Source: Candidatus Thermoplasmatota archaeon (lineage in GTDB: Archaea > Thermoplasmatota > Thermoplasmata > RBG-16-68-12 > JAGMCJ01). Taken from it: 62,635 nucleotides of DNA. The notes under the pieces were generated by a model, which worked only from the letters and a program-made list of their open reading frames with translations, made no database searches and had not been told where the DNA came from. A program made the position numbers and the translations under genes. The stretch spans positions 1 to 62,635 of the forward strand of contig JAJISE010000006.1 in NCBI GenBank assembly GCA_022848865.1, given 5' to 3'. Shown one piece after another: positions 41,250-62,635 of this stretch (position 1 is its first letter; the number at the start of each line of letters is the position of its first letter).

Positions 41250-41301
41250 GCCGTCAGAAAGCGTATAATAGCCCGATTGACTAATGCCCCTGGGGAGAGA
41301 C

Positions 41302-42366: not shown

Positions 42367-42382
42367 CAACGGGACGCGAACT

Positions 42383-42844: not shown

Positions 42845-42928
42845 TCTCACTCCTCCCTTTCTCCGATTGGCGAACGTCCTCCCGCCTTTTATCCGTTCCT
42901 CCCTGCGAGAACCACATGAGATACGAGC

Positions 42929-44017: not shown

Positions 44018-44391
44018 CAGTCCACAACCAGCTTTAGATTCGTGACTATGCAGTCCCTTCCGCTAACGATTTCCACGTTCTCGCCGCACTTGGGACAGGA
44101 GAAGCGGGGCAGTCGGAGGTGGTCGAGCGGGTCGTCCGACCTTCCAATGGGACCCTCGTAGCCGCACTTCCCGCACTTGACCTTGGCCTTCTTCTCCTTG
44201 ATGATGAGCTTGGAGCCCTTGAGCGGGCCGTCCTTTGAGAGCACCTCGTACGAGAAGAGGCACTGTTCCTTTCCCAGCAGAGTGAGCTCGCCGATCTCGA
44301 GCTCGACCTCCTCGACAGCACTTGCATCGTGCTTCCTAATCTCTTCCAGAACAACCTCCACGAGGCTTGACATGACGGAGAACTCATGCAA
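44017..44391 (-). CDS. hypA: Nickel metallochaperone HypA
   Basis: The 124-residue product delivers nickel to hydrogenase. The family requires His2 as nickel ligand in a Met-His-Glu start; here the only way to obtain it is the TTG at 44391, giving MHEFSVMSSLVE. The zinc site is CGKCGYEG ... CPKCGENV. It overlaps hypC by 8 bases and hypD by one. Confidence 0.92.
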   Translation of the reverse strand: MHEFSVMSSLVEVVLEEIRKHDASAVEEVELEIGELTLLGKEQCLFSYEVLSKDGPLKGSKLIIKEKKAKVKCGKCGYEGPIGRSDDPLDHLRLPRFSCPKCGENVEIVSGRDCIVTNLKLVVD

Positions 44392-44605
44392 CGTTCCCAC
44401 CGAGGATCTGATCGAAGAAGGCGAGGGTCTCCTGGGCCTCCTCCTTATCGAGGACTTGAATCGCGAATCCCGCATGAACAATGACATACTGGCCGACCAC
44501 CGCATCGGTCAGCGAGACATCGACCTCTCTCTTGATTCCGCCGAAGTCGACCGTGGCGACGTCGCCCTTTATGTCAAGGACCTTGGCGGGTATGGCTAGA
44601 CACAC
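44384..44605 (-). CDS. hypC: Hydrogenase maturation chaperone HypC
   Basis: The 73-residue product begins MCLAIPAKVLDI when the GTG at 44605 is used, placing the essential Cys2 that binds the Fe unit at the right place. It partners HypD. The 85 bases between it and hypF show no gene. Confidence 0.92.
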   Translation of the reverse strand: MCLAIPAKVLDIKGDVATVDFGGIKREVDVSLTDAVVGQYVIVHAGFAIQVLDKEEAQETLAFFDQILGGNVA

Positions 44606-44689
44606 GATGGATAGAATGGAGGTTGCGGTTATAAAGCTGACGAGGAGCAATGATGGAGTTGAGCGATGTACACAGAAGTCGTGACAGCG

Positions 44690-46909: not shown

Positions 46910-46919
46910 TCAGTGAGCC

Positions 46920-47579
46920 TCAGTCCATTGGCAATCCCAGTGCGCGCATCAGATCCTCGATACCCTCCCCGTGCTTTGCGTCCGTGTAGACGACCGTAGC
47001 CTTCGAGCCCAGTTCCCTCGCGTCCTTCCCGAGGGTCTTTGGATCGACCTCCATCGCCTCTGCGAGGTCCGTCTTGTTGATGGCGATGACGTCCGAGAGC
47101 CCGAAGATAAGAGGATGCTTCATGATCATGTCGTCGCCCTCGGTCACAGAGACGACGACCATCCTCTTGTCCGTTCCCAATGCGAAGTCCGCCGGGCACA
47201 CGAGGTTCCCGACGTTCTCTACGAAAAGAACACTAATGCCATCCAGGTCCATGTGCTCGAGCGCGTGGTCGACCAGATGCGCGTCGAGGTGGCACTCCTT
47301 GCCCGTATTGACGTTCTCCACCGGTACGCCGTGCTTCTTGAACCGCTGATAGTCGGCGTTCCCGGCAACATCGCCCGCGATCACCGCGGCGGAGATGCCC
47401 CTGCCCTGGAGAATATCGATCATCTTCTCCGCCAAGAGCGTCTTTCCCGCCCCTATCGAACCCATTATGTCGATGGACACTATCCCTTTTTCGCGGAGAA
47501 AAGCCCTGTTCTTCTGTGCGATTTCCCTGTTCGCTTGGAGAAGGTCGACCCCTGACCTGACCTCCACTAGTTTGTGCAT
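46920..47579 (-). CDS. hypB: GTPase HypB for nickel insertion
   Basis: The 219-residue SIMIBI GTPase has Walker A GSIGAGKT, GDVAGNAD, a metal-binding CHLDAHLV and NKTD. It lacks both the N-terminal CxxCGC motif and a His-rich stretch, like other archaeal HypB proteins. The ATG at 47579 is about 30 bases from a TATA box, implying a very short leader. It is first in the hypBFCAD operon. Confidence 0.94.
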   Translation of the reverse strand: MHKLVEVRSGVDLLQANREIAQKNRAFLREKGIVSIDIMGSIGAGKTLLAEKMIDILQGRGISAAVIAGDVAGNADYQRFKKHGVPVENVNTGKECHLDAHLVDHALEHMDLDGISVLFVENVGNLVCPADFALGTDKRMVVVSVTEGDDMIMKHPLIFGLSDVIAINKTDLAEAMEVDPKTLGKDARELGSKATVVYTDAKHGEGIEDLMRALGLPMD

Positions 47580-47812: not shown

Positions 47813-50629
47813 ATGAGGATGAGCGTTAGCAGGCAAGAACTGGCAGCGGCCATCGGGGCCGGCAGGGTCGCGGAGGACCCGACAACTGGAAAACCGGTGG
47901 CGAAGATAACGACGACGCAGGAGCTTGTCAAGCTCGTAGGGTTCTGCTCGAGCAAGAAAGCGAACCTCGTCGTGAAGAGGAGCAAGGACTTCTGGGCATC
48001 CGGTTCTGGGAATGGAGATGTGCTTCTCGACATGGACCAGCTTAACAGGTCCGTGAGGGTCGATCCGAACGACCTCTTCGTCAGCTGCGGGCCTGGTACC
48101 GCGGTCGCCGAGCTCATCGACGAACTCGAGAAGCAAGGCATGACGCTCGCAGCGCTCCCCGCCTCGAACGAGATGTCCGTGGGGGAGTGGCTGCTCTGGA
48201 GAAGGGCAAGCTTCGGAACGATAGCGAACGGCGACGTGTCGAACGAGATACGCTCCGTCGACCTCGTCCTCGGAGACGGCAAGGCGCTAGAAACGGGGTA
48301 CGAGGCAATCTCCAACTTCGGTACAGGCTACGACCTCAACCGCCTGACGGTCGGTTCCTGCGGGATCTTTGGGATACCCGCCTGGGTCCATTTCTTCATT
48401 CGACCGATGCCTCCCGAGGTGAGGCTTCTGAAATACTCCCTGTCCGTCGACCAGCTGTCCGCCTTCCTCGGCAAAGTCTCGGGGATCTACGACGTTCACG
48501 ACATCACGATTTCAGCGGGAGTTGACTCCGGACCCAAGCCTATAGTGCGAATCGCAATCCTCCGCGCGGGAGAGGCCAACGACGAGATTGAGGAAAGGAT
48601 CGATGAGATCGGAGAGGGCCACAGCGCGACGAAGCTGGAATCGGAGAAACCGAACTCGTTCAGGTTCCTCTCGAAGAGGGGGAAGTTCGAGTTCGCGGAC
48701 GAGATGGTCCTGCCGCAGAAGGGAATCCCTGATCTGCTTGAGACCATGAAAGAACCACTCGCCAGAATGGAGCTCGACTTCACAATCTTGACATCGGGTC
48801 TCTGCGCAGTCCGGGCGCTGGTCGTTCCCGCCAGAGCGAGACTCGGGCACGAGGACATCGACTCAGCCAAGAGGAAGTTCCAGGAGTCCGTGTTCACGAC
48901 GGGCGGATTCATCCGCGACGTGGACCTCTGGACTCAGGACATGCAGGAGGGCGGCGCGTCGGCCTTCTGCGCGCTCAAGAGCGCCTTCGATCCCCGCATC
49001 GTGACATCGAAACACATCGTTGGAAAGGTCTCGAGCCAACATGCCGTTGGAGCTTGCGCGCGGGCCTCGTCATCGAGGATTGGGGAATCCTCCAGGGGGA
49101 TAATGAGGGTCCTCCCGAGGAAGAGGGGGAAGCTGGACAATGGGCTGAGCAGGAAACTCGTTGAACTCATTGGCGAGGACAACGTCGCCCTAGACATGTT
49201 CAGGCGCTTGCTCTACTCACACGATCTGGCGCCTCTTCCGAAGCTCGTAGGCATCCCGTTCGAGGTCCTTCCCGATGCGGTCGTGAGGCCGAGGAACGTG
49301 GAGGACGTGCAGAAGCTGGTCGAGTTCGCCAGGGAGCACAAGATTCCGATCATACCGCGAGGAGGGGCGAGCTGGGGCTTCGGCGGGGCGGTTCCCAACC
49401 AGGGGGGCATCGTGCTCGACATGTCCCGCATGAACAAGATACTCGAGATCGATGAGGACAGCCGCATCGCCATCTGCGAGTCTGCCGTCACCTGGCTCGA
49501 TATCTCCGAGGCCGCCGAGCTCAAGGGGCTGTTCCTGCCCACTTATCCCGGCAGCGCAAGGATCGCAACGGTCGGAGGCTGGATGAACACCGGAGGCGCG
49601 GGAATCGGGGCCTACGGGGCTGGAACGTCGGTCCAGCTTATTGAGCACATGCAGGCGGTCCTCGGTGACGGTAGAATCCTGAACACCGACGTGGACGGCG
49701 CCTCTGGCAAAGGACCCGACCTGAACGCCCTCATATCGGGGTCAGAAGGAGGACTCGGCATAGTCACGAAGGCTGCCGTCAGACTGCGGCCGATGCCCGA
49801 GGAGATCCGACCCCTTGCGTATTCGTTCGACAAGCTCCCGGCGATGGGGAAACCGCTGAGGGAGATCGGCCACTCGCAATCCCTCCCGTACAACGTGTCC
49901 TTCTCCGACGGCAACTACTTCGATTTCGTCCGCCTGCTCGGCAGGGAAGCCCCGGAGGTCGGTTCTCTTCTGAGCGTCACACTGGCGGGCTCAGCGAAGT
50001 CGAATGAGGCGGAGGAGGCGATGATCGATGGAATCGTCGAGAAGGGGGGAGGAAAGAAAGAGTCCGAGGATTTGGCGGTGCACGAATGGGAGGAGCGCAC
50101 GTACGAGATGAGGATCAGGAGGCTCGGGCCGGGCGGGGCTCTGGGCGAGGTTGTCCTTCCCGTGACCGCGTTCTCGGAGATGATGAAATCCGCCGCCAAG
50201 ATAGCTAAGGAGCTCAAAATGCTCTCCACCCTGAAGGGGGTTCTCATCGACAGGAACTGCGTTGCGTTCATGCCCTTCTACGTCGCGGACGAGCGGTATG
50301 CCATCGCCTCGTTGGCGTCGATGGGGTTCGTCAAGCACATCCTCGACAGGGCTGTGGAGCTTGGCGGGCGCGGTTCCGGTCTCGGCCTCTGGTTCTCGTG
50401 GAACCTGGACAATCTGCACGGCAAACTGGGCGGGGACATAATGACGAGCGTGAAGCTGACGCTCGACCCCGACGATATTGTCAATCCGGGGAAGTTCTTC
50501 GAGATGAGGATGCGCTACGGGGTAGGTATCCCCGGTCCGCTGATGGCCGTGGGCCTCGACATGCTGGCGATGGTGAAGAAGGCGTTTCCAAAGACAAAAA
50601 TAGGCGGGCTACCCTCTGGAGTACGATAG
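47813..50629 (+). CDS. Tandem double FAD-linked oxidase (GlcD-like fusion)
   Basis: The 938-residue product is about twice the usual GlcD/Dld length (450-470). Residues 1-440 resemble a vanillyl-alcohol-oxidase-type FAD domain whose binding segments are altered (KRSKDFWASGSGNGDVLLDM in place of the usual PRGGGTS). Residues 455-938 form a complete module with IPIIPRGGASWGFGGAV, GWMNTGGAGIGAYGAG and a C-terminal DPDDIVNPGKFF. It likely oxidises a 2-hydroxyacid and passes electrons to the Fe-S protein encoded one base downstream. ATG 47819 is an alternative start. The N-terminal half may have become structural. Confidence 0.85.
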   Translation: MRMSVSRQELAAAIGAGRVAEDPTTGKPVAKITTTQELVKLVGFCSSKKANLVVKRSKDFWASGSGNGDVLLDMDQLNRSVRVDPNDLFVSCGPGTAVAELIDELEKQGMTLAALPASNEMSVGEWLLWRRASFGTIANGDVSNEIRSVDLVLGDGKALETGYEAISNFGTGYDLNRLTVGSCGIFGIPAWVHFFIRPMPPEVRLLKYSLSVDQLSAFLGKVSGIYDVHDITISAGVDSGPKPIVRIAILRAGEANDEIEERIDEIGEGHSATKLESEKPNSFRFLSKRGKFEFADEMVLPQKGIPDLLETMKEPLARMELDFTILTSGLCAVRALVVPARARLGHEDIDSAKRKFQESVFTTGGFIRDVDLWTQDMQEGGASAFCALKSAFDPRIVTSKHIVGKVSSQHAVGACARASSSRIGESSRGIMRVLPRKRGKLDNGLSRKLVELIGEDNVALDMFRRLLYSHDLAPLPKLVGIPFEVLPDAVVRPRNVEDVQKLVEFAREHKIPIIPRGGASWGFGGAVPNQGGIVLDMSRMNKILEIDEDSRIAICESAVTWLDISEAAELKGLFLPTYPGSARIATVGGWMNTGGAGIGAYGAGTSVQLIEHMQAVLGDGRILNTDVDGASGKGPDLNALISGSEGGLGIVTKAAVRLRPMPEEIRPLAYSFDKLPAMGKPLREIGHSQSLPYNVSFSDGNYFDFVRLLGREAPEVGSLLSVTLAGSAKSNEAEEAMIDGIVEKGGGKKESEDLAVHEWEERTYEMRIRRLGPGGALGEVVLPVTAFSEMMKSAAKIAKELKMLSTLKGVLIDRNCVAFMPFYVADERYAIASLASMGFVKHILDRAVELGGRGSGLGLWFSWNLDNLHGKLGGDIMTSVKLTLDPDDIVNPGKFFEMRMRYGVGIPGPLMAVGLDMLAMVKKAFPKTKIGGLPSGVR

Positions 50630-50630
50630 C

Positions 50631-51806
50631 ATGGTGGACATCGGCGAGATAGAGCTCGATATCTATGCATGTCTGCAATGCGGCTACTGCAAGGGGACGT
50701 GTCCAGCGTACGACATGTTCGGATGGGAGTCGGACAGCCCAAGGGGGAAGATGTTCTACCTGAAGCAGCTTCAGGAGCGAAGCATACTCGACAAGAACCC
50801 CAAGGAGATGGATCCGCAGTTCTTCGAGGCGCTCTTCCACTGCACATCATGCGGGGCGTGCGACGAGGTCTGCCATGTCGACATCAAGCTCTCCGACGTA
50901 TGGGAGCAGGTGAAGGAGGAGTTCGTCCGGGCAGGATTCGAGGGCCTTCCAGGCCATAAGGAATTGGCCAAGAGGATATACAATCCCGAGAAAAGGAACC
51001 CCTTTCTGGATCCCAACGACCTGGAGAAGGACAAGCTCAAGAACAGGACCGCCTGGGTCCCGGAGGACCTGAAGACCAGCGACAACCCAGAGGTCCTCTA
51101 CTTCGTGGGTTGCACGGAGGCCTACAGGATGCAGTTCCTTGCCGAGGCGACGGCGAGGCTCATCGAGGCCACCGGGGTCAGGTTCGACGTTCTTGGGACC
51201 GATGAGTGGTGCTGCGGCTCCCCCTTGCTTCGAACGGGACAGGGGGACGGGATAAAGGCCGAGTATGTCAACCACAACGTCCGAGAGGTCGAGCGGAGAG
51301 GCGCGACCACGCTCGTCACTGCGTGCGCTGGCTGCTTCAAGACGATCAAGGAGAATTACCCTCTCTATCACGGCAAGCTGAACTTCGAGGTGAAGCACAT
51401 CACCGAGTTCCTGGCGGATTCTATCAAAGCTAAGAAGCTCGAGTTCACGAAGGAGTTCCCCAAGAAGGTCGCCTACCATGATCCATGCCATCTCGGCAGG
51501 CACGCGAAAGTCTTCGACGCACCGAGGGAGGTCCTCAAGGCGATACCGGGACTGGAGCTCCTGGAGATGAGAAGGAATAGGGAGAACTCGAGATGCTGCG
51601 GTGCGGGCGGCGGCTTCAAGATCGCCTTCAACGAGCATGCGGAGAGCATCGCCGCGGAGAGGGTCTTGGAGGCTGTCGAGACGGGCGCTGAGCTCATAGC
51701 GACCCCGTGTCCCTTCTGCGTCGTCAACCTCAACGCGGGAGCGAAGAAGGCCGGCATCGACATGAAGACCATGGACGTCGTCCAGATAGCCCACCAGTGC
51801 CTCTGA
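50631..51806 (+). CDS. HdrD/GlpC-like Fe-S protein with two CCG domains
   Basis: The 391-residue product has two N-terminal [4Fe-4S] motifs (CLQCGYCKGTCP, CTSCGACDEVCH) and two CCG domains (CCGSP with CAGC; CCGAGGG with CPFC). This is the GlpC/HdrD layout, which takes electrons from a flavin partner to a quinone, methanophenazine or heterodisulfide-type acceptor. It begins one base after the oxidase stop. No membrane segment is seen, so a soluble acceptor is likely. Confidence 0.9.
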   Translation: MVDIGEIELDIYACLQCGYCKGTCPAYDMFGWESDSPRGKMFYLKQLQERSILDKNPKEMDPQFFEALFHCTSCGACDEVCHVDIKLSDVWEQVKEEFVRAGFEGLPGHKELAKRIYNPEKRNPFLDPNDLEKDKLKNRTAWVPEDLKTSDNPEVLYFVGCTEAYRMQFLAEATARLIEATGVRFDVLGTDEWCCGSPLLRTGQGDGIKAEYVNHNVREVERRGATTLVTACAGCFKTIKENYPLYHGKLNFEVKHITEFLADSIKAKKLEFTKEFPKKVAYHDPCHLGRHAKVFDAPREVLKAIPGLELLEMRRNRENSRCCGAGGGFKIAFNEHAESIAAERVLEAVETGAELIATPCPFCVVNLNAGAKKAGIDMKTMDVVQIAHQCL

Positions 51807-51868: not shown

Positions 51869-52993
51869 ATGAAAGTCGCCATGCTCACGCACAGCACCAA
51901 GCCCCGTGGGGGAGTGGTCCACGCCCTCCACCTCTCCGAGGCCCTCACGGACCTCGGGGTGGACGTTCATCTGTTCTCGTTGAGGAAATGGCGGGAGGAA
52001 TCATACGCGCACGGGTTCTTCAGGGAGGTCTCCGTTCCGTTCGACGTATTCCCCTACCGCGCTCGCGGCAACCTCAACGAGGATGTCAAGAGGATGATCT
52101 CCACGTACGATGAGAACCTCCCGCTCGATTTCGACATATATCACACTCAGGACTGCATCGGAGGGAACGCACTCAACCTGCTGAAGAAGAAAGTCAGCGC
52201 CCCGACCATTCGGACGGTGCATCACGTTGACGAGTTTCGCGGCCCAGTACTAACGAAGTTCCAGGAGGATTCCATAAATCTGTGCGATGTGAAGGTTACG
52301 GTCTCGGAATACTGGAAGAAGAAGCTGAAGAAGGAGTACGGCGTGGACTCCCACGTCGTCCATAACGGCGTGGATGTGAAGAGGTTCGATCCTGAACGAT
52401 ACCCGAAACCTGAGCGGGCTGGTGTGGACATCCTCTTTGTCGGCGGGCTCGAGGCCAGAAAGGGCCTGGAGCATCTCTTCCTAGCGGTGGAGAACCTGCT
52501 GCCTCAACATCCAGATACGAGGCTGACGGTGCTGGGGAGGAGCGGGATGACATCGGCACAGGAATTCGACGAGAGAAGGCTCTTCTCCATCCTCGCGAAG
52601 AGACTTGGAATAGGCAGGAATGTTCGCTTTCTGGAACAGGTGAGCGATGAGCAACTGCCCAGCCTGTACGCGCTCTGCGATCTCCTCGTGCTCCCCTCGC
52701 GAATGGAGGGGTGGGGGCTGGCTCTGATGGAGGCGATGGCCATGATGAAGCCCGTGGTCGCAACGAGGGTGGGAGGCATTCCTGAACTCGTAGAGGACGG
52801 AAAGACAGGATATCTGGTGGACCTCGGCGACGTCCTGGGGCTTTCCGAGGCGATTGCCAAGCTGATTGACAACCCTGCACTGAGGAAGAAGATGGGCCGC
52901 CAAGGCAGGCGGTCCGCGAAGAAGTATACGTGGGACAACGCGGCAAGAAAGACGCTGCAATTGTATAAGACAGCCTTGGCGGGGTCGACATGA
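51869..52993 (+). CDS. GT4 glycosyltransferase, MSMEG_0565-like
   Basis: The 374-residue GT-B enzyme opens with KVAMLTHSTKPRGGVVHALH and contains RTVHHVDEFRGPVLTKFQ. Both strings recall the MSMEG_0565 family, a glycosyltransferase tied to the bacterial Nit1C locus. The retaining GT4 EX7E motif is EGWGLALMEAM. The nucleotide-sugar donor is unknown. It overlaps the OsmC gene by 4 bases and sits close to radical SAM and AIRS-like genes of the same bacterial locus. Confidence 0.85.
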   Translation: MKVAMLTHSTKPRGGVVHALHLSEALTDLGVDVHLFSLRKWREESYAHGFFREVSVPFDVFPYRARGNLNEDVKRMISTYDENLPLDFDIYHTQDCIGGNALNLLKKKVSAPTIRTVHHVDEFRGPVLTKFQEDSINLCDVKVTVSEYWKKKLKKEYGVDSHVVHNGVDVKRFDPERYPKPERAGVDILFVGGLEARKGLEHLFLAVENLLPQHPDTRLTVLGRSGMTSAQEFDERRLFSILAKRLGIGRNVRFLEQVSDEQLPSLYALCDLLVLPSRMEGWGLALMEAMAMMKPVVATRVGGIPELVEDGKTGYLVDLGDVLGLSEAIAKLIDNPALRKKMGRQGRRSAKKYTWDNAARKTLQLYKTALAGST

Positions 52994-53421
52994 AGACATT
53001 CCGGTCAAGCGCCAGATGGATCGGTGAGAAGCAGGGAGAACTGACGTTCGAGAACGGTGAGAAGGTCGATTTCTCCTCTCCAGTGGACTTCGGCGGGATG
53101 GATGGCTTCGTCGTCCCCGAGGAACTCTTGATCGCCTCCTTGAACGCCTGCCTCCACGTGACCTTTCTCACGTTCGCCCAGAAGATGAGGATCGAGGTCC
53201 GGTCCTTCGAGTCGGAGGCGGAGGGCCATCTGGATGAGACAAACGACACGATACGGTTCGTCGGGTGCACGGTTCGCCTGCGGGTGCTGGTGGCGTCTGA
53301 GAGGGATGTCAAACGCGCAGAGAAAGCCGTCTCCTTGGCAGAGAAGAGATGCTTCATCTCGAACTCAGTGAGTTTCGAAGTGAGCATGGAGTCCACGATC
53401 CGCGTCGGCGAGATCGAATAA
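52990..53421 (+). CDS. OsmC-family protein
   Basis: The 143-residue alpha/beta product has the two reactive cysteines of OsmC/Ohr peroxidases, in LNACLHV and RCFISNSV. It probably reduces organic hydroperoxides or handles reactive thiols. It starts inside the glycosyltransferase stop, so the two are coupled. Confidence 0.85.
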   Translation: MKTFRSSARWIGEKQGELTFENGEKVDFSSPVDFGGMDGFVVPEELLIASLNACLHVTFLTFAQKMRIEVRSFESEAEGHLDETNDTIRFVGCTVRLRVLVASERDVKRAEKAVSLAEKRCFISNSVSFEVSMESTIRVGEIE

Positions 53422-53422
53422 C

Positions 53423-53761
53423 CTACTTCAGGAGGGCCTCTGCCACATCAATTGCGTCTTTGGCGAACACGAGAGAGGGTCCCCCGCCCATCTCGACGCC
53501 AATCGCGCCCGCCTCTAGAATCTCGTCCTTCGAGGCTCCCGCATCAATCGCCTTCTTGACGTGCGCTAGCACGCACGACTCCGACCGGACGGCGACGGAG
53601 CAAGCCACCGCGACTATCTCCTTTGTCTTTCGCGGCAGATGTCCGTCCTTGTAGGTCGACTGCAAGAGCGAACGGAAACCCTCATAGAGGTCGGGCATCT
53701 CCTTCCGAATCTTCTCCTGGCATTCGTTCCTGTCCTCGATTGCCTTGGCTACAGGTTTCAT
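53423..53761 (-). CDS. Carboxymuconolactone decarboxylase/AhpD-like protein
   Basis: The 112-residue CMD-domain product has RSESCVLAHVKKA at the active site. AhpD-type members carry CxxC followed by His; here the first Cys is Ser (SESC), leaving one Cys and the His. The start at 53761 (MKPVAK) follows GGAGG. It ends one base from the stop of the convergent OsmC gene. Both are redox-type proteins. Confidence 0.82.
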   Translation of the reverse strand: MKPVAKAIEDRNECQEKIRKEMPDLYEGFRSLLQSTYKDGHLPRKTKEIVAVACSVAVRSESCVLAHVKKAIDAGASKDEILEAGAIGVEMGGGPSLVFAKDAIDVAEALLK

Positions 53762-53868
53762 CAAATTTCCTCCGTCCTCGGCATCCCGCACGTGCTACTT
53801 AAGCCCTCGGAGGACGTGAAAGCGCGCCCGCCGGGACTTCGGAAAAGGAAATATGCTCAGAAGGGATT

Positions 53869-54060
53869 ATGGCGACGAGGGTGTTCATGACGATGAGGTT
53901 CATCAACTCGTTCGAAGTCGTCGACCTGACGGAGAAGGATGATGACCGTTGGGTGACGCTGAGAGACATGAGGGGAGAGAAGGTCAATGTCAGGGTGTCA
54001 GAGTACACGGCTTCGGATCTCCACATCGGCGGGGTGGTGGGCCTTTATCTGGAGGTCTAG
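53869..54060 (+). CDS. Small beta-rich protein, function unknown
   Basis: The 63-residue product (SFEVVDLTEKDDDRWVTLRD, then VNVRVSEYTASDLHIGG) looks like a single small beta barrel. AGAAGGG precedes the ATG at 53869; ATG 53887 is possible. It converges on the GNAT gene, with stops overlapping by 4 bases. The short conserved-looking sequence favours a real gene. Confidence 0.55.
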   Translation: MATRVFMTMRFINSFEVVDLTEKDDDRWVTLRDMRGEKVNVRVSEYTASDLHIGGVVGLYLEV

Positions 54061-54539
54061 ATCTCCCTTTCGTATCTCTGGACCAGCATACCCTTGGCTT
54101 GCTCGAAGGGCTCTCCCACTTTCCGGAATGAGTATCTCCTCACGCACAGCTCACCAATGCCGTGACCGATGAGGATGTTGACCACGTTCTTCCTGCAGTT
54201 CGTTCTCTTGGCCAATTCCAAGAACTGATCGTACATGGCCTCTGCCAGACCCGCCGCCCTGCAGCTCGGATGGATAGACTGGTGCTCTCCGAAACACGTG
54301 TCCCCGCGGATTCTCGCTTTGTAGACGCCGACGATCCTCTCATCGAGCGCTATCCCGAAATAGCGGTGGCCGCTCTTCATCTCCCCGACGATCTCCTCTG
54401 CGGAGAGCATCCTTCTCCGCCGCCATTCCTCAGGATACTCCTTCGCCTGAGGCCAGACTGCTCGGAAGAGGTCTTCTATGTCCTTTGCGTCCGTAGGGCC
54501 AAACTCTTCTACCACCCACTCCTCATTCATCTCCCGCAC
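54057..54539 (-). CDS. GNAT-family N-acetyltransferase
   Basis: The 160-residue GNAT fold has an acetyl-CoA loop region (SIHPSCRAAGLAEAMYDQFL, the RxxGxA-type pattern). The bacterial Nit1C locus also encodes a GNAT protein, but this one is too divergent for me to call it the same subfamily. It overlaps the AIRS-like gene by 17 bases, in an operon of radical SAM, AIRS-like and GNAT genes. Confidence 0.78.
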   Translation of the reverse strand: MREMNEEWVVEEFGPTDAKDIEDLFRAVWPQAKEYPEEWRRRRMLSAEEIVGEMKSGHRYFGIALDERIVGVYKARIRGDTCFGEHQSIHPSCRAAGLAEAMYDQFLELAKRTNCRKNVVNILIGHGIGELCVRRYSFRKVGEPFEQAKGMLVQRYEREI

Positions 54540-55506
54540 CCGAAGGTTGAGCAGGGGTCGCGCCGGTGATTATCTCATTCTCAAGGTCGAACAACACGCG
54601 TGACTCGTCCCCGAGGGAGACCCGCATCTTCCTCTCTCCAGTCGCGCGGCCCACGACAGCGGTGCCCAGTTCCCTCTCCCGCAGTATGTCCAGTGTCTCA
54701 TCGGTCCTGGTCCTATCACAGGTCAAGATGAACCCGCATCCAGGATACGTGAGGACCCAGGACGACATATCAACGCTTTCGGGCTTGGGAATCGCACCCA
54801 CGTCCACGTCCGCTCCCACACCGGAGGTCTCGAGCAACATTGCGATAGTACCCAGAACGCCTGGATTGGATATGTCCTTCGCTGCGGACGCAGACCCCTT
54901 GTCCGCGATCTCGACGAGGGCTCCCAGCCTGAGCAGAACATCCTCCGAGGACTTCCCGCTCGTGGAATCGAAATTCAGGAATCGGGATTTCATCCTTCCA
55001 ACGAGGTCTGTTGCGACAACGATGTCGTCACCGGCCTTGCAGCCGAAGCTGGACAGTGGGTTCTGAGCGGCCCCGAGAATGAACAGCGAGATGGCAGGCG
55101 AGTCGGACGCAGGCTGCACGTGTCCCCCGACGATTGGGACTCTGAACTTCAACGAACCTGCTTTCATGCCCTTGGCCAAGAGCCTTCCTTCTTGTTCGTC
55201 TCGGAAGGTGAGCGTGTTCACGATCGCCAAGGGCCTCCCTCCCATCGCGTACACGTCATTGACGTTCGCGAGGACGGAGCAATAGCCCGCCCACTCGGGG
55301 TCCTCGAGGAGTCTGGACCATATGCTCTCGGCTGCGAGAAGAAGGTAATGCCCCTCATGGTCGATGACGGCGCAGTCCTCCCCGAAACCGTGAATGGTCT
55401 GTCCCATATTCTCGACGGGGCCGAGCTCCTCGATTATCGGGGAAATCGGTCTCTTCCTCGTGAGCCCTTCGTAGTTCCTCACGAGGTCGACGATGTCCTT
55501 CAACAT
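54523..55506 (-). CDS. AIR synthase-related protein (Sll0787/MSMEG_0567-like)
   Basis: The 327-residue PurM/HypE-fold protein has GEDCAVIDHEGHYLLLAAES, then VLANVNDVYAMGGRPLAIVN and VPIVGGHVQP. This pattern matches the AIRS-like proteins of the Nit1C locus better than PurM, ThiL, SelD or HypE. PurM-fold enzymes activate a carbonyl oxygen with ATP; the substrate here is unknown. It follows the radical SAM gene by 4 bases. Confidence 0.85.
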   Translation of the reverse strand: MLKDIVDLVRNYEGLTRKRPISPIIEELGPVENMGQTIHGFGEDCAVIDHEGHYLLLAAESIWSRLLEDPEWAGYCSVLANVNDVYAMGGRPLAIVNTLTFRDEQEGRLLAKGMKAGSLKFRVPIVGGHVQPASDSPAISLFILGAAQNPLSSFGCKAGDDIVVATDLVGRMKSRFLNFDSTSGKSSEDVLLRLGALVEIADKGSASAAKDISNPGVLGTIAMLLETSGVGADVDVGAIPKPESVDMSSWVLTYPGCGFILTCDRTRTDETLDILRERELGTAVVGRATGERKMRVSLGDESRVLFDLENEIITGATPAQPSGAGDE

Positions 55507-55510
55507 GCTA

Positions 55511-56566
55511 TCATCTGTAGTAGTCCATCAGGGCTGAGCATCCCCCGCAGCGCACGCACCCCGCCAAGTTCTTCGCCGGATTGATTCCGTGCTCTTTCAT
55601 GCTATCACATGCGTAGGAGTAGAACTCCTCCATGACCTCCGGTCTTGGCGGGATGGAATCCCGAAGCGGTGTTTCGTCCAACGGTCTGAGCGGGACGACG
55701 AAGGGGATGACACCCGCCTCACACATCTTGTCGATCCCCGCCAAGGTCTCGATCCGGTCCTCTCCAAGCCCCAGGATGACGTAGGAGCTCACCTGATTGG
55801 GACCGAAGACGTCGAGGGCGTTCTCCCACGCCTCGAAGTAGACATCGTAGTCGCCCGCCTTGCCTGGACACACTCTTTCGAGGGTCTTTCTATCGAGGGA
55901 TTCGATATGGATGCCAATGCTGTCCGCTCCCGCAGAATGCATCGATTCGATCTCTTCCTTGGAAACCGGCTCGATCTGCACGTGGACGCCCATCCTCGCG
56001 TTATCCTTCACAGCTCTAGTTACGCTCGAGAGCATCCTCGAGCCTTTGTCCCTCAGATTGGCTGTGCCCGTTGTGAGCGTGATGTGGTCGAAGCCTTCGC
56101 CCTCCGCCGCTTCGGCAACCTCGGCAAGATGATGTGGCTTCTTCACTTCCATTGTCATCCCGTGTTTCAGCGAGAGCTCGATTCCGCAGAACTTGCACTG
56201 GTCGCCCATCTCCCACCTCACGCATCTCTGATAGACAGTCGAGCCAAGACATCTGTTCCCGTGAGCCAATGCGATCATCCGCATTCTTACACCATCAGAT
56301 GTCGGCGCATCATAGAATCTGGGGTTGTCCAGAAGGTCCACCTTCGTCTCCTTGCCTCCGTCGCTGACGTAGTGTTTGTCGTCACGTTCGAGCAGATGGA
56401 TCGGAGAGTCCTCCGCAAACCCGAATATGGGGACGTTCGTGACCGAATCGTGCACAAGGAGGTACCTCCCACCAGCAGGTCCCGCGCCCCACTTCCTTCC
56501 CTCCTTCAGCTCGTCAGGGGCCTTCATTCCGAGACAGAGAAGTCTGTTCTTGAGGGTGGCTTCCAT
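55511..56566 (-). CDS. Radical SAM protein, MSMEG_0568 family-like
   Basis: The 351-residue product has GAGPAGG near the N-terminus, a noncanonical cluster motif CVRWEMGDQCKFC (C-x8-C-x2-C in place of CxxxCxxC), IELSLKHGMTM, TTGT, VSSYVILGLGED and a C-terminal GCVRCGGCSAL. These match my memory of the MSMEG_0568 radical SAM family from Nit1C, which has the same long spacing and GCxRCGxCSAL tail. It leads an operon with AIRS-like and GNAT genes. ATG 56566 has GGAG at good distance; ATG 56572 is in frame. The reaction is unknown. Confidence 0.87.
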   Translation of the reverse strand: MEATLKNRLLCLGMKAPDELKEGRKWGAGPAGGRYLLVHDSVTNVPIFGFAEDSPIHLLERDDKHYVSDGGKETKVDLLDNPRFYDAPTSDGVRMRMIALAHGNRCLGSTVYQRCVRWEMGDQCKFCGIELSLKHGMTMEVKKPHHLAEVAEAAEGEGFDHITLTTGTANLRDKGSRMLSSVTRAVKDNARMGVHVQIEPVSKEEIESMHSAGADSIGIHIESLDRKTLERVCPGKAGDYDVYFEAWENALDVFGPNQVSSYVILGLGEDRIETLAGIDKMCEAGVIPFVVPLRPLDETPLRDSIPPRPEVMEEFYSYACDSMKEHGINPAKNLAGCVRCGGCSALMDYYR

Positions 56567-56660: not shown

Positions 56661-57911
56661 TCACTTCCGCACACTCTCCACGGCCTCCTTGATGAGGCTG
56701 GAGAAGTCGCAGTTTACGGGGATATTGGCCTCACTGAGTGCGATCAGTTCGGACCTGGGTTCAGCATCGAGGAATCCCTTCTCTGTATAGAATGACAGGA
56801 GACCCTTCTTTGCCTTGAAGTGCTCGTCGTAGTTCCTGAAGGCTCCGCAACCGATGGTCTCGACGTTGGCTGAGAAGTTGAGGAATTGGGGAACCTGCTC
56901 GGCACTTCTCTGAACCACCTCGGTCCTCAGCCTGAGAGGTGCCTTTAGGCTGTACTTGATGTGGCCGAATGCGAGTATCTCGTATCCTAGCTTCCGAAGG
57001 TCCACGATCCTGGCGGTTCGCGTCAGACCGGTCCTCTCGAACTTCTTCCTCATGGTCGATATGACCTGTCTCGACGCATCGATCTTCTCAGACAGGGCAA
57101 CATCCGTCTCCTCCGGACGCTCAACGAGGCCTCTGAGAACCGTCCTCTCTTTCTTCGTGAGTCTCCTGATGTCGACCCTCTGGAAGGGGGCTTCAACGAT
57201 CGCTTTGTCCTTAATGTCAAAAAGCCCGCGAAGAATCCAGGAGTAGTCGAAATGCCTAATGTGCTTGCTGGTTTCAAACGGGAAGACCACCGATGTCCCT
57301 TCAGCTCCACGAAACAGGTCCGTTTCCGCGAACTCGATCTCAATCGCTTCCGCCCACCTTCTGTAGGACGTGTAGTTCCTCACGGCTGAGACATGAAAGA
57401 AGAAACCTGGTGACGTCACAAGGTAATACAGGCCCTTGTTCTCTCTCCTCAACGCATCCACGAAGCGGTTCCTCAAGGCGTCGTCCGCGGAAGGACTGAA
57501 CTTCCCGTACCCGACGACGGTCAGTTCGAACCCGAGTTTGTTGGCTGCAGGGATCCTGACAGTCTTGAAGTAGCCAGATTCGTGCAATCGTCTTCTAATG
57601 GCGGTGATGGTTGAATGCTTGACCTCCATCTCCTCGGAGAGCTCACGGTCGTTCATGGTCGGATGCCTCACAAGCCCGTAGAGGACCTTTCTCTCGTTTG
57701 TCGTCAAACCCTTCTTCACGAACAGTTCAAAGGTCCCGACATATTTGAAGTCTATGAATTTGTTAGGACTTCCCCCAATACTGCACTCAATGTCCTTCGT
57801 GGATCGTGCAACTCGTGCAGATATCTCAGGAAGCGCGCCGTGGTCCGCGTGGCGGAAGCATGCTACCCTCGGAACAGTCGCGTCCGCCTGTGTTGTGCAC
57901 CCCCAGAACAT
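56661..57911 (-). CDS. Two-HTH transcription regulator (Lrp/TrmB-like)
   Basis: This protein of about 416 residues is a paralogue of the regulator at 5222-6283. The first HTH reads LTTNERKVLYGLVRHPTMND, then VKHSTITAIRRRL; the second is around ALSEKIDASRQVISTMRKKF. It shares a promoter region with the radical SAM gene at 57958 and likely controls it. The start is uncertain: TATA sequence at 57924-57932 predicts transcription from about 57902, and family similarity begins only near residue 65, so a GTG there is possible. Confidence 0.72.
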   Translation of the reverse strand: MFWGCTTQADATVPRVACFRHADHGALPEISARVARSTKDIECSIGGSPNKFIDFKYVGTFELFVKKGLTTNERKVLYGLVRHPTMNDRELSEEMEVKHSTITAIRRRLHESGYFKTVRIPAANKLGFELTVVGYGKFSPSADDALRNRFVDALRRENKGLYYLVTSPGFFFHVSAVRNYTSYRRWAEAIEIEFAETDLFRGAEGTSVVFPFETSKHIRHFDYSWILRGLFDIKDKAIVEAPFQRVDIRRLTKKERTVLRGLVERPEETDVALSEKIDASRQVISTMRKKFERTGLTRTARIVDLRKLGYEILAFGHIKYSLKAPLRLRTEVVQRSAEQVPQFLNFSANVETIGCGAFRNYDEHFKAKKGLLSFYTEKGFLDAEPRSELIALSEANIPVNCDFSSLIKEAVESVRK

Positions 57912-57923
57912 TGCCAAGCAACC

Positions 57924-57932
57924 ATTATATAG
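57924..57932. promoter_or_regulatory. Divergent TATA region
   Basis: ATTATATAG can serve as TATA box in both directions: rightward for the radical SAM gene (start 57952/57958) and leftward for the regulator. Binding of the regulator here would affect both genes. Confidence 0.5.
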
Positions 57933-57957
57933 ACAGACTGATTTAATTGCAGTGGAG

Positions 57958-58965
57958 ATGTGGCCAATACGGGACGTGAGATATCAGGTTACACATGCCT
58001 GCGATCTCCATTGCCCCCACTGTTTTGCGAAAGCCGATAAACCGCTGCCCGACGAGTTGACGCTCGAGGAAGCGAAGGCAATGGTTCTCGACCTGAAGGA
58101 GAGTGGGATGAGAATGATCACACTCACGGGCGGCGAGCCACTATGTCGAGAGGAGTTCACGCTTGACCTGGCTTCCTTCCTGGGCGAGCAGAGAATCCGC
58201 TACAGGGTCTTCACGAACGGCCTCCGCATGACGGAAGAAATCGCATCCCGTCTGAAGGAGAGCGACACCTACGAGGTTCAGGTGAGCTTCGACGGTCTGA
58301 GAGAGACCCATGATGCGTTTCGCGGAACCGAGGGGTCCTTCGACAAAGCGATTGGGGCTCTCGAAATCGCCAGAGACGCGGGGCTGAGGACAACGGTCAG
58401 AGTCACGGTCACGAGAAGGAACTCAGAGGAGATCCTCGACCTCCTGGACATCGTCTATCCGCTGGGTATATCTGCCTTCAGGATTAGACCGTTCGTCCCC
58501 GTCGGAAGAGGAAAGGAGCACAAGGAGTTCATCCCCAAAAGGACAGACTTCGAGAATTCCTTCGGTCGTCTCGCAAAGGTGAAGGAAAGGTACCCGATCC
58601 AGATCACGTTCATAGTTCCCCATTTCATCTTCGTCTTCGACAGCAGCAGGAAGTATCATTCCGAAAGGGAGTTCGACGGCATGCCCTGTGTGTGCGGAAA
58701 GACCCTGGCAGCGATTACGCCAGACGGAGGGGTCAGACCGTGTGGTTACTTCTCCTCCGACCTGGGGAATGTAAGGGAGATGAAGTTCTCTGAGATATGG
58801 GAGAACAACGAGTTCCTTCAGAGAATGAGGAACCTCGAGAGACTGGAGGACAGGTGCATGGAGTGCGAGTTCCTGAGCCTTTGCCGTGGCGGTTGCAGGG
58901 CGTCCGCGTACGAGAACACGGGAAGGCTCGATGCGACCGATCCCCTTTGTCCGTTGGTGGAGTGA
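57958..58965 (+). CDS. Radical SAM/SPASM-domain enzyme
   Basis: The 335-residue product has the canonical CDLHCPHC (Cys15, Cys19, Cys22), GGEP, and a C-terminal SPASM-type cysteine set (CVCGKTL, RPCGYF, CMECEFLSLCRGGC, CPL) for auxiliary clusters. SPASM enzymes modify peptides or build heme and tungsten-enzyme partners. No precursor peptide gene is evident. It starts at ATG 57958 or GTG 57952, both about 25-30 bases from the TATA box. The next gene starts immediately after its stop. Confidence 0.85.
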   Translation: MWPIRDVRYQVTHACDLHCPHCFAKADKPLPDELTLEEAKAMVLDLKESGMRMITLTGGEPLCREEFTLDLASFLGEQRIRYRVFTNGLRMTEEIASRLKESDTYEVQVSFDGLRETHDAFRGTEGSFDKAIGALEIARDAGLRTTVRVTVTRRNSEEILDLLDIVYPLGISAFRIRPFVPVGRGKEHKEFIPKRTDFENSFGRLAKVKERYPIQITFIVPHFIFVFDSSRKYHSEREFDGMPCVCGKTLAAITPDGGVRPCGYFSSDLGNVREMKFSEIWENNEFLQRMRNLERLEDRCMECEFLSLCRGGCRASAYENTGRLDATDPLCPLVE

Positions 58966-59811
58966 ATGTTGAGACCAGAGCACTGCAGAGAGGTTGGCAT
59001 CAAGGACGTTGACTTCCCGCTCAACCCGGAGAGCATCGTGAAGGCCTGGAAAGGGGAGAGGATCTACTTCAGAACGAAGTACCTCGTCCTCAGGAGTGGA
59101 GACGAGCACTGCGTCCTTGGAGTCAAATCGGCGGCATCCAGTGTCATGAATGATGTTGACAGCATCGATATCATATCCCTTCCAAATGAGACCGTGTGGG
59201 TGGAAGACGCGGAGATAGATGTCCTGAGCCCGACACAGCTTGTCCGTGTCGCCCTTCAGCATCCCGGCAAGACAGTAGTCGTGAAGGGAAGGTTCGACCA
59301 CGTGAGCTTCGTCAAGGATCCCGAGGCCATGAGGATACGGGTATTCGATGTGGTCCCGCCGGCCTCGAAACTGGTCAGCCTCGTCAGGGATGCCGCCGAC
59401 TCGCAGGCCATCAGTGTGGCGGTGGACGTCGAGGAAGATCTTGTGGACATAAACGTCCTGGCAGAGGATGTGAAGACTGAGGAAATCCTTCTTCCTTGCG
59501 AAGGAGAGTTGGCGACGGAGAAGACGGTTCTCTATCTGGCGAAGGGTCCTGCCGTGCGCGACGCGACTCTCATCGGGTGCGAGTTCTCCAAGAAGGTCGC
59601 TAGGGAGCTCTATGGCAGGGATCTGCCATTCATTCAGATGTGCCCGTGGAGATTAGTCAATCGAACCGATGTACCGACGATAGTGAAGTGTTGCGAGCTC
59701 CAATCGGGCTTCAAGATCGACGGCAATGTGGCGATTGTCCCATGGGGTGCTAAGACCGAGGATGTCGCTCAGGCAGTGGAACACCTGCTCAGTGGGAGCG
59801 AGACCGGATGA
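58966..59811 (+). CDS. Uncharacterised protein in the radical SAM/NadA-like operon
   Basis: The 281-residue soluble alpha/beta product starts CREVGIKDVDFPLNP. Its C-terminal part contains LIGCEFSKKVARELYG, QMCPWRLVNRTDVP and KCCELQSG before a terminal WGAKTEDVAQAVEHLL. The clustered cysteines (CPW, KCC) could bind metal. It resembles an uncharacterised family I recall from haloarchaea, but I cannot name it with confidence. It is fused by position between SPASM and NadA-like genes and overlaps the latter by 4 bases, so a shared pathway is likely. Confidence 0.7.
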   Translation: MLRPEHCREVGIKDVDFPLNPESIVKAWKGERIYFRTKYLVLRSGDEHCVLGVKSAASSVMNDVDSIDIISLPNETVWVEDAEIDVLSPTQLVRVALQHPGKTVVVKGRFDHVSFVKDPEAMRIRVFDVVPPASKLVSLVRDAADSQAISVAVDVEEDLVDINVLAEDVKTEEILLPCEGELATEKTVLYLAKGPAVRDATLIGCEFSKKVARELYGRDLPFIQMCPWRLVNRTDVPTIVKCCELQSGFKIDGNVAIVPWGAKTEDVAQAVEHLLSGSETG

Positions 59812-60872
59812 TTGTCATCTCGCACAACTACCAGGACGGTCCCACCCAGGAAGTCTCAGATCACATCTTCGGAACGACAAGCATAGTAAGGAGAGCGCGA
59901 GAGTTCAAGGGGAAGCAGGTGCTCTTCTGCGGCGTCATGTACATGGCGGAGGACATGTACAACATGGTGGACGGTGACATCGAGATATTCCTCCCCGAGA
60001 TACAGGTCAGGGATGGAGAGATCGACAGACCGAGATGTCCGATGATCAAGAAGCAGACGGGAACCGAGATCGTCACAGCAAGACATCTCCAAGAAGCGAG
60101 AAAGCACGAACCCGATATGATCCTATCGTACATCAACACACCTTCGAGCATAAAGGCGAAGACGGATGGCGTCTACAACGGGACCGTGGGTCTCGACGTC
60201 ATCAGGAGAATCGCCGAGGACCGCGGAGGCAAGGGCAGCGTGGCCTTCATCGGAGATCATAACATGAACGAGTGGATCGCAGATGTCGTGAGACCTGAGT
60301 TCCCAGAGTTCAAGGTGATTTCGGTGCCCGCGCTTGGCGTCCAATGTCCCAGTCACGTGAAGATCGATGAGGCACTCTTCATTGAGACGTATCAATCTCT
60401 GAAATCGAGATTCGGTGACGACCTCGGGTTGGAAATGCACGCTGAGGTGACGAAAGAGCTTCGGGAGTTCGGGTTCGAGAACGACGCCTACTTCGGCGGG
60501 ACGGGGGGGTTGGTTCACAGGCCCATGGAGTCTGACATCAACCACTGGCTCGTGGGCACGGTCGAGGGCGTTGTGGACAGACTCAGACGCGAATCGACTA
60601 AGGATATCTATTCTCTCGGAATCAAATGCCCGAACATGTCATTCACCACTCCTGAAAAGGTCTCGATCGCGAGAGAGTTGCTAGAAGGCGGTGGCCCCGT
60701 CGCAGAGGCTCGCTACGTCACGTCGGACATGCCCTATTTCGATGTAGAGATCCTGCGGCCAGATGTCGTGAAGGGAGTGATGAAAGGCTCCTCGCGGATA
60801 CCAGCGGTGAGAATCACTGTGAAACAGGGGATCAGTGAAAAAGCAAAGCAGGCCCTGGAGCTACTCCTCTGA
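59808..60872 (+). CDS. Quinolinate synthase (NadA)-like protein with altered cluster site
   Basis: The 354-residue product keeps the NadA plan: SHNYQ, CGVMYMAED, RPRCPMIKKQTG (Cys77, first cluster ligand), SYINTPSSIKAKTD and a late CPNMSFTTPEK (Cys274, third ligand). The second ligand, normally in a HPEC motif, reads HAEV (Val214). An extra Cys180 in VQCPSH is present. Either the cluster binds differently or the protein no longer makes quinolinate. No nadB/nadX or nadC lies nearby; instead the operon holds a SPASM enzyme and an unknown protein. It ends 2 bases before the stop of the convergent microprotein gene. Confidence 0.82.
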   Translation: MIVISHNYQDGPTQEVSDHIFGTTSIVRRAREFKGKQVLFCGVMYMAEDMYNMVDGDIEIFLPEIQVRDGEIDRPRCPMIKKQTGTEIVTARHLQEARKHEPDMILSYINTPSSIKAKTDGVYNGTVGLDVIRRIAEDRGGKGSVAFIGDHNMNEWIADVVRPEFPEFKVISVPALGVQCPSHVKIDEALFIETYQSLKSRFGDDLGLEMHAEVTKELREFGFENDAYFGGTGGLVHRPMESDINHWLVGTVEGVVDRLRRESTKDIYSLGIKCPNMSFTTPEKVSIARELLEGGGPVAEARYVTSDMPYFDVEILRPDVVKGVMKGSSRIPAVRITVKQGISEKAKQALELLL

Positions 60873-61231: not shown

Positions 61232-62635
61232 ATGAGCGACCGAGTGTTGGTGCTGGGAGGAGGAATCGCAGGAATCCAATCCGCCCTCGACCTTGCGGAA
61301 TCGGGCGCCGATGTGACGATTCTCGAAAGCTCTCCCTTCATCGGGGGCCGTATGGCCCAGCTGGACAAGACGTTCCCCACGAACGACTGCTCCATGTGCA
61401 TACTGTCTCCCAAGCTCGTTGAGGCGGGGAGGCATCCGAACATAGAGCTTGTCACCAACGCGGACCTGATCGCACTGGAGGGAGAGAAGGGCAACTTCAC
61501 GGCGACGATACGCAAGAAGCCCAGATACGTGAACGAGGAGAAGTGCGTCGCCTGCGGAATCTGTGCGGAGAAGTGTCCCGTCAAGCTTCCGAGCGAGTAC
61601 GATGCTTCCACTTCCGAGAGAAAGGCCATCTACCGAGCGTATCCTCAGTCCGTGCCTTCCACTTACGTCATAGACAAGGACAACTGCATATACTTCAAAA
61701 CGGGCAAGTGCAGGGCCTGCGAGAAGTTCTGCGAGGCCAAGGCCATCGACTTCGATCAGAGCGAGGAGGAAGTGAGGATAGAAGTCGCCTCCGTCATCAT
61801 AGCATCCGGAGCGGATGTCTTCGATCCCTCCGAGATACACGAGTACGGCTACGGCGTGCTTCCGAACGTCATCACGAGCCTCGAGTTCGAGAGGCTTCTC
61901 AGCGCATCAGGTCCAACGCAGGGAGAGATAGTCAGGCCCTCCGACGGGAAGGAGCCTGAGAACATCGCTTTCATACAGTGCGTCGGCTCCCGGTCCACGG
62001 TCTACGGAGGAGAGTACTGTTCCTCCGTGTGCTGCATGTATGCGCTCAAGGAAGCTATCGTTGCGAAGGAGCACTCTGAAAGAATCAATGCACACATCTT
62101 CGCGATGGACCTGCGCGCGTACGGCAGGGAGTTCGAGGACTATCGCATCAGGGCGGAGGAAGAGTACGGAATCCAGATAACCAGGAATAACAGAATCGCC
62201 TCGCTCGAGGAGCCGCTAGAAGGAAACGACATCATAGTCAGATACGTCGAAGAGGGTGAGATCAGGGAGAAGGTCTTTGACTTGGTCGTCCTTGCAGTGG
62301 GCCTCCAGCCACATCGTGATTTCTCCAGGTTGAGCGAGGTCTTGGGGCTCGACCTCGACAAGTATGGATTTTGCCTGACTCAAGGATTCGAGCCCGTTCA
62401 ATCATCCCGGCCCGGCGTTTACGTTGCCGGCGTTCTTGAAGGTCCCAAAGACATCCCTGACAGTGTCTGTCAGGCCTCCGCTGCAGCGGATTTGTCCTCT
62501 CAGGGGGGCGAGGAGGAGGTGGATCGTGGGAGCAAGGATCTTCCGGACGAGATCGATGTCTCCGGAAAGGAGTCCCGCGTTGGCGTCTTCATCTGCCACT
62601 GCGGCATCAACATCGGCAGTGTCGTCGATGTCCCC
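61232..62635 (+). CDS. hdrA: Heterodisulfide reductase subunit A (partial, runs off the window)
   Basis: The first 468 codons of HdrA are present, in frame to the window edge. It has the FAD motif VLGGGIAGIQSALDLA, NDCSMCILSPKLVE with the HdrA-specific cysteines, two [4Fe-4S] groups (CVACGICAEKCP; CRACEKFCEAKAI) and a second nucleotide-binding region (FIQCVGSR, CSSVCCMYALKEA). The late GVFICHCGINIG opens another cysteine region. HdrA is the flavin centre of electron-bifurcating Hdr complexes. Whether hdrBC or a hydrogenase (mvhADG) follows is outside this window. ATG 61232 has a weak GAGG upstream. Confidence 0.9.
   Translation, partial: MSDRVLVLGGGIAGIQSALDLAESGADVTILESSPFIGGRMAQLDKTFPTNDCSMCILSPKLVEAGRHPNIELVTNADLIALEGEKGNFTATIRKKPRYVNEEKCVACGICAEKCPVKLPSEYDASTSERKAIYRAYPQSVPSTYVIDKDNCIYFKTGKCRACEKFCEAKAIDFDQSEEEVRIEVASVIIASGADVFDPSEIHEYGYGVLPNVITSLEFERLLSASGPTQGEIVRPSDGKEPENIAFIQCVGSRSTVYGGEYCSSVCCMYALKEAIVAKEHSERINAHIFAMDLRAYGREFEDYRIRAEEEYGIQITRNNRIASLEEPLEGNDIIVRYVEEGEIREKVFDLVVLAVGLQPHRDFSRLSEVLGLDLDKYGFCLTQGFEPVQSSRPGVYVAGVLEGPKDIPDSVCQASAAADLSSQGGEEEVDRGSKDLPDEIDVSGKESRVGVFICHCGINIGSVVDVP

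Follow-up and report, generated by a model that had tools for sequence, protein, structure and literature searches.

An archaeal radical SAM, AIR-synthase-like and acyltransferase gene trio that shares the core of Nit1C and lacks its nitrilase

When part of a bacterial nitrilase cluster turns up in an archaeon without its nitrilase, is it still that cluster, and if it is not, what might it make? The question is raised by contig JAJISE010000006.1 in the metagenome-assembled genome (MAG) of Candidatus Thermoplasmatota archaeon (GCA_022848865.1; 2.03 Mb, 95.8% complete); we refer to the whole stretch of 62,635 nucleotides as the window. A sequence-only reading of the window had described, between positions 51869 and 56566, candidates from the bacterial Nit1C locus: a glycosyltransferase (GT), a radical S-adenosylmethionine (SAM) enzyme (rSAM), an AIR-synthase-like protein (AIRS) and a GNAT acyltransferase. 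Nit1C was defined as seven genes that include a nitrilase, and the nearest relatives of its rSAM and AIRS genes were reported to be archaeal, with no function given (Podar et al. 2005, PMC1199592). In Pseudomonas, the cluster has been tied to cyanide assimilation via NitC (PMC11049912; PMC6368324), and our literature search found no paper that names MSMEG_0568 together with radical SAM. We find that the window locus shares the core of Nit1C, but we do not class it as Nit1C, because it falls short of the nitrilase, GNAT and AIRS models of that cluster. The four genes are as follows.

55511..56566, minus strand: rSAM, MSMEG_0568-like, a TIGR04043 match with C-x8-C-x2-C and GCVRCGGCSAL motifs (searches were run with 55511-56557, three residues shorter)
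54523..55506, minus strand: AIRS, an AIR-synthase-like ATP enzyme of the PurM superfamily, between methanogenesis marker 2 and Sll0787
54057..54539, minus strand: GNAT acyltransferase (Pfam PF00583) from an archaeal family found alongside this rSAM
51869..52993, plus strand: GT, MSMEG_0565-like (TIGR04047)

The positions and motifs of these genes, the 17-base overlap of the AIRS and GNAT genes and the 4-base gap between the rSAM and AIRS genes were all as first described. Membership of Nit1C families, which had been suggested for all four, is borne out for the rSAM and the GT but not for the AIRS protein or the GNAT. The rSAM scores 305.8 bits against the MSMEG_0568 family (TIGR04043; cut-off 303.7), and its relatives score on either side of that cut-off. 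The GT, an optional member of Nit1C, scores 274.2 bits against TIGR04047 (cut-off 259.85; next family 143.5), and its homologue at another locus (L042) scores 279.4 bits. The AIRS protein is below the cut-off of both families to which it is closest, with 314.9 bits against marker 2 (TIGR03267; cut-off 365) and a lower 267.6 bits against Sll0787 (TIGR04049; cut-off 321.3), and in a tree it falls outside the marker-2 clade (support 100/97), amid an unresolved set of proteins from similar loci. Down to an E-value of 0.01 the GNAT matches no NCBIfam model, including TIGR04045 (MSMEG_0567/Sll0786); its sole match is Pfam Acetyltransf_1 (PF00583, 30.1 bits). By these models, two of the four reported genes are Nit1C family members, and the others are superfamily-level or between-family relatives.

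The locus is, as had been read, homologous to Nit1C in its core and without a nitrilase. The further suggestion that the nitrilase might lie elsewhere in the genome is rejected: no Nit6803-type nitrilase was found in the 95.8% complete genome, whose single CN_hydrolase gene belongs to another family and scores 42.4 bits against TIGR04048 (cut-off 502.6). NitB, NitG and the flavoprotein NitH are not in the block of genes described below, and no separate whole-genome search was made for them. The alternative suggestion, that the enzymes act on another substrate, is favoured, since the core without nitrilase is found in several archaeal lineages and in dozens of anaerobic bacteria, with canonical Nit1C nested among them.

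The bacterial loci illustrate this distribution. Of 395 genomes from the phylum to which a Desulfobacterales MAG belongs, 39 carry the rSAM, and the usual bacterial operon reads HdrD-like protein, SsuA/NMT1 binding protein, permease, ATPase, rSAM, GNAT, AIRS. Across 37 fetched stretches (two of them duplicates and two archaeal), a TIGR04045-like GNAT lies near the rSAM in 32, AIRS in 24 and an HdrD-like protein in 22; the rSAM and GNAT are fused in 20, and NitB, NitC, NitG and NitH are found in none. Nor does a nitrilase lie near the core in any fetched archaeal or Desulfobacterota locus. The bacterial partner GNATs match TIGR04045, and in Mycobacterium the fusion is instead between GNAT and AIRS. 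Canonical clusters on bacterial plasmids have the order NitB-NitC-rSAM-GNAT-AIRS-(GT)-NitG-NitH. Canonical Nit1C sequences group together with support of 100/99 in each of two rSAM trees, and their clade lies inside the nitrilase-free bacterial loci, which archaeal sequences join below. Given that canonical Nit1C is nested in nitrilase-free relatives, the simplest reading of the trees is that the nitrilase was added late to the core.

In archaea, the trio of rSAM, AIRS and GNAT is kept while its order changes: rSAM-AIRS-GNAT in Thermoplasmata, AIRS-GNAT-rSAM in UBA186 and in L264, which belongs to the Bathyarchaeota phylum, and GNAT-rSAM-AIRS in a second Bathyarchaeota locus (L043). The GNAT stays beside the rSAM in Thermoplasmata, Bathyarchaeota, Theionarchaea and UBA186. 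Theionarchaea have a GNAT-rSAM pair with the AIRS gene elsewhere, adjoining an SsuA-type binding protein, permease and ATPase. A NitT/SsuA-type (sulfonate-type) transporter is found beside the AIRS gene there and beside the core in Desulfobacterota. The retention of the set through shuffled gene order argues for function and not for slow drift. Lokiarchaeal rSAMs were considered as part of the same system and rejected: they are 37-42% identical, most have methylmalonyl-CoA mutase as a neighbour and the nearest AIRS genes lie at other places in these genomes, and their loci are not counted as trio loci. Two Paraburkholderia Nit1C clusters (L184 and L186, at 12.4-15 kb of each) likewise end with an LnmK-like acyltransferase/decarboxylase and methylmalonyl-CoA mutase. 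Viral and phage searches returned nothing useful; one unannotated gut phage contig (MT835476, 82599-83627) carries an rSAM relative that is 26% identical.

Within the order of the window genome, the rSAM is present in 4 of 5 genomes of the genus and in 3 of 5 of a second family (f46). The 27 genomes from other families yielded no true homologue. In three f46 genomes (G302, G362 and G363) the trio sits in a block of about 13 kb and eleven genes whose arrangement is the same as in the window family (f1): GlcD, HdrD-like, GT and OsmC; GNAT, AIRS and rSAM; and rSAM2, XcbA, NadA-like and HdrA. The genes of the block beyond the four above, and their genus-level neighbours, are listed here.

47813..50629, plus strand: GlcD-like FAD oxidase with two FAD-binding halves (TIGR00387, 226 bits; cut-off 568)
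50631..51806, plus strand: HdrD/TfrB-like Fe-S protein (NF004898, 245.5 bits; cut-off 385)
52990..53421, plus strand: OsmC-like thiol protein (PF02566, 64.4 bits), with a 4-base overlap with the GT gene
53423..53791, minus strand: CMD/AhpD-like protein (PF02627, 67 bits), a genus-level neighbour, probably not core
53869..54060, plus strand: small open reading frame (ORF) of 63 residues, genus-level, for which family searches gave no match
56661..57917, minus strand: double winged helix-turn-helix (HTH) regulator-like protein with TrmB/Lrp-type matches, a genus-level neighbour
57805..58965, plus strand: second radical SAM/SPASM enzyme (rSAM2), AhbD/NirJ2-like, below cut-offs (TIGR04545, 221.4 bits; cut-off 500)
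58966..59811, plus strand: XcbA family protein (DUF7714; NF052538, 211.3 bits, above the cut-off of 150)
59808..60872, plus strand: NadA-like Fe-S protein (NF006878, 94.3 bits; cut-off 294)
61232..62635, plus strand: HdrA-like protein, cut by the contig end

Protein identities between the window and the three f46 genomes are 44% for GlcD, 68-69% for the HdrD-like protein, 53-55% for the GT, 37-38% for OsmC, 50-56% for the GNAT, 49-52% for AIRS, 53-56% for the rSAM, 54-57% for rSAM2, 44-47% for XcbA, 59-63% for the NadA-like protein and 64-65% for HdrA, whose gene follows the NadA-like gene in each of them. With synteny at 37-69% protein identity in a second family and the trio in other archaeal phyla, the linkage exceeds chance. 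Neither the family scores of the rSAM nor the conservation of its neighbours speaks against the first reading; the AIRS protein does so in part, by its higher score to marker 2. The places of the CMD protein, the HTH protein and the neighbouring hydrogenase maturation (hyp) genes are not kept in the f46 block, where an unrelated ORF of about 200 residues occupies the HTH position; the linker between the halves also differs, with large proteins in G302 and G363, those of G302 carrying Ig-like, PKD and FG-GAP domains. The OsmC, CMD and small proteins had been put forward as possible new members: OsmC is conserved in f46, but we reject the CMD protein, the 63-residue ORF and also the HTH protein, since their conservation stops at the genus. 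In the 63-residue ORF, synonymous changes fail to tell the predicted coding frame from the antisense frame. The NadA-like protein has four conserved cysteines across the window, G302, G362 and G363, and it may have a role other than that of NadA, because G363 holds a separate NadA-like gene (L285).

Several observations concern the surroundings of the block. The hydrogenase maturation genes hypE, hypD, hypA-like, hypF and hypB adjoin it (window 41284-47579), and the rSAM has hyp neighbours in UBA186 (L080) and in two Lokiarchaeota loci (L066, L069) as well, but not in f46, so that a link to hydrogenase maturation is no more than a lead. An aldehyde ferredoxin oxidoreductase family protein is encoded upstream (window 37313-39151). 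At the L042 locus, the HdrA-like neighbour scores 985 bits to HdrA2.

To what chemistry might the trio contribute? The AlphaFold2 model of the rSAM (pLDDT 94.2) has lipoyl synthase, BioB and HydE as its nearest solved folds. Its SAM-cluster motif is C112-x8-C121-x2-C124 (348-residue numbering), in which the first loop varies from 3 to 9 residues among relatives, with the canonical 3 in Dehalococcoidia. The C-terminal GCx2Cx2C (C334-x2-C337-x2-C340) is invariant in 28 of 28 aligned family members and present in 0 of 4 methanogen paralogues; C334, C337 and C340 are the extra cysteines looked for in a radical SAM enzyme with an auxiliary cluster and, judging from this pattern, could bind a second Fe-S cluster. 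The AIRS model (pLDDT 89.6) is nearest to PurL, HypE, ThiL and SelD. These enzymes use ATP to phosphorylate their substrates, at an amide-type oxygen in PurL and HypE.

Taking together the homology, the conserved linkage, the fusions, the order of the trees and the absence of Nit6803, we propose that the trio is the archaeal form, lacking a nitrilase, of a biosynthetic core of three enzymes that predates Nit1C, makes a small acylated metabolite and does not assimilate cyanide, a proposal that in our judgement is evenly poised between right and wrong. The chemistry that we infer runs in three steps. The rSAM would functionalise a small substrate at an unreactive carbon, perhaps with insertion of sulfur taken from a putative cluster at its C-terminal cysteines; the AIRS-like protein would then activate an amide or carboxylate oxygen with ATP to give an amidine, thioamide or nitrile; and the GNAT would acylate an amine from acyl-CoA. 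The product would be a small, acylated metabolite bearing nitrogen and probably sulfur. In the window's order, the GT and thiol/disulfide redox proteins (OsmC, HdrD-like, GlcD-like and HdrA) would have joined this core, and its partners in Desulfobacterota would be a sulfonate-type importer and an HdrD-like protein; bacteria would later have gained the nitrilase, NitB, NitG and NitH. The sulfonate-type transporter and the HdrD-like, OsmC and XcbA neighbours are circumstantial pointers to sulfur chemistry.

A number of points weigh against this proposal. The window rSAM clears the TIGR04043 cut-off by two bits only, and the deep forks of the trees are weakly supported, in particular the place of the window's order. 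Against lipoyl synthase the rSAM model reaches TM-scores of 0.52-0.60, a moderate range that most BioB-like enzymes share, and the sulfur theme comes from neighbour genes and not from chemistry. Comparison of the archaeal GNAT with the bacterial TIGR04045 GNATs gives an hhalign probability of 50%, which does not establish them as one family. Lastly, HdrD-like proteins of archaeal and bacterial loci form no common group in a tree, so that the link may be convergent; the tree gives no support to the HdrD-like protein as a part co-inherited across domains, and that candidate was rejected.

Of the other explanations, the strongest is that the locus is left over from methanogen cofactor metabolism or akin to it, in which case the rSAM and AIRS belong to the unsolved pathway of methanogenesis markers 2, 4 and 11, and XcbA, HdrA and the HdrD-like protein form a coenzyme-M-like thiol system kept after the loss of methyl-CoM reductase. 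Marker 2 is the best-scoring family of the window AIRS, and the AIRS protein of L042 (11037-12008) even passes the marker-2 model (366.9 bits; cut-off 365) in a genome without mcrA, a case in which the name of the model can mislead annotation. In three loci from two other archaeal phyla (L194, L195, L263), the rSAM follows Mmp4/MtxX and Mmp11, at about 7.3-10.7 kb of each locus; all three proteins exceed their cut-offs in L195 and L263, where the rSAM scores 308-325 bits against TIGR04043, and the L194 markers share 79-83% identity with their L195 counterparts. To our knowledge, an operon of Mmp4/MtxX, Mmp11 and an MSMEG_0568-like rSAM has not been described. Almost all of the Methanomassiliicoccales-type families sampled have XcbA, which is present in 39 of the phylum's 293 genomes, and methyl-CoM reductase (mcrA/MCR_alpha) is absent from all seven genomes tested, namely this one and six other carriers. 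Methanogenesis markers that persist after Mcr loss have been described, their roles unpredicted (PMC9635834). However, the position of the window AIRS outside the marker-2 clade, together with the missing mcrA, led us to reject it as a true marker 2; the roughly 22% of the G363 genome that was read showed neither Mmp4 nor Mmp11; and the bacterial carriers are not methanogens. We regard this explanation as rather doubtful. XcbA (window 58966-59811) is itself a case of this family in a genome without methyl-CoM reductase. In five Methanomassiliicoccales loci (L159, L160, L161, L162, L167), a distant radical SAM paralogue (NF045502-like) comes directly after an apparent cysteinyl-tRNA synthetase; such paralogues also lie near a cysteine-synthase-like gene and XcbA.

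A second explanation accepts the trio as a unit and takes the GT/OsmC/HdrD/GlcD and rSAM2/XcbA/NadA-like operons to be independent neighbours, kept by slow rearrangement and uninformative on the product. The block does consist of three separate transcription units, the trio loci of Bathyarchaeota, Theionarchaea and UBA186 lack its flanking genes, and the failure of the HdrD-like proteins to group fits as well. Against it, gene content is kept between f1 and f46 while the CMD, HTH, hyp and other genes turn over, and the GT, which scores above the cut-off of the Nit1C GT model, adjoins AIRS in canonical clusters too; we think this explanation unlikely. That the archaeon has a working Nit1C and draws its nitrogen from nitriles or cyanide, the nitrilase being encoded elsewhere or replaced, is highly improbable: the rSAM and GT pass Nit1C models and the cluster is required for growth on cyanide in Pseudomonas (PMC11049912; PMC6368324), but the only CN_hydrolase is not Nit6803, NitB, NitG and NitH are not in the block, the GNAT is from another family and the core lacks a nearby nitrilase in the loci surveyed above.

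The proposal of a biosynthetic core can be taken further, if tentatively. The core may be an ancient route in anaerobic archaea and bacteria, with chemistry in common with markers 2, 4 and 11, to an undescribed small metabolite or cofactor, with the cyanide-linked Nit1C of aerobic bacteria as a late offshoot that recruited a nitrilase; we lean away from this wider version more than towards it. For twenty years Nit1C has been viewed via its nitrilase, and the nitrilase-free core of anaerobes separates the rSAM, AIRS-like and GNAT enzymes from cyanide, so that the thing to seek is a product that the trio makes by itself. Two gene sets of unknown function would be joined by the operon link to markers 4 and 11 and by the resemblance to marker 2, each testable via the other.

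Compared with known systems, the window locus is closest to bacterial Nit1C (nitBCDEFGH; sll0783-sll0787; MSMEG_0565-0572) in having a homologous rSAM, an AIRS-like protein and a GNAT in one operon with an adjacent TIGR04047 GT, but it differs in the absence of Nit6803 from the genome and of NitB, NitG and NitH from the block, in a GNAT that is not TIGR04045, in an AIRS under the Sll0787 cut-off and in its anaerobe-type redox neighbours. The rSAM-GNAT-AIRS operons without nitrilase that we describe from Desulfobacterota, Dehalococcoidia and relatives have the same three activities and an HdrD-like protein nearby, whereas their TIGR04045 GNAT is often fused to the rSAM, they carry an SsuA/TauA-type ABC transporter and they lack the GT/OsmC/XcbA/NadA-like block. 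Methanogenesis marker 2 (TIGR03267) is the best-scoring family of the window AIRS, and in other archaea this type of rSAM comes after markers 4 and 11, but the window AIRS is under the cut-off, outside the marker-2 clade and in a genome without mcrA. Finally, lipoyl synthase, biotin synthase and HydE share with the rSAM a radical SAM barrel of the kind found in enzymes that insert sulfur or hold a second cluster, while the moderate TM-scores, 15-22% identity and a different extra cysteine motif, the C-terminal GCx2Cx2C, set the rSAM apart from them.

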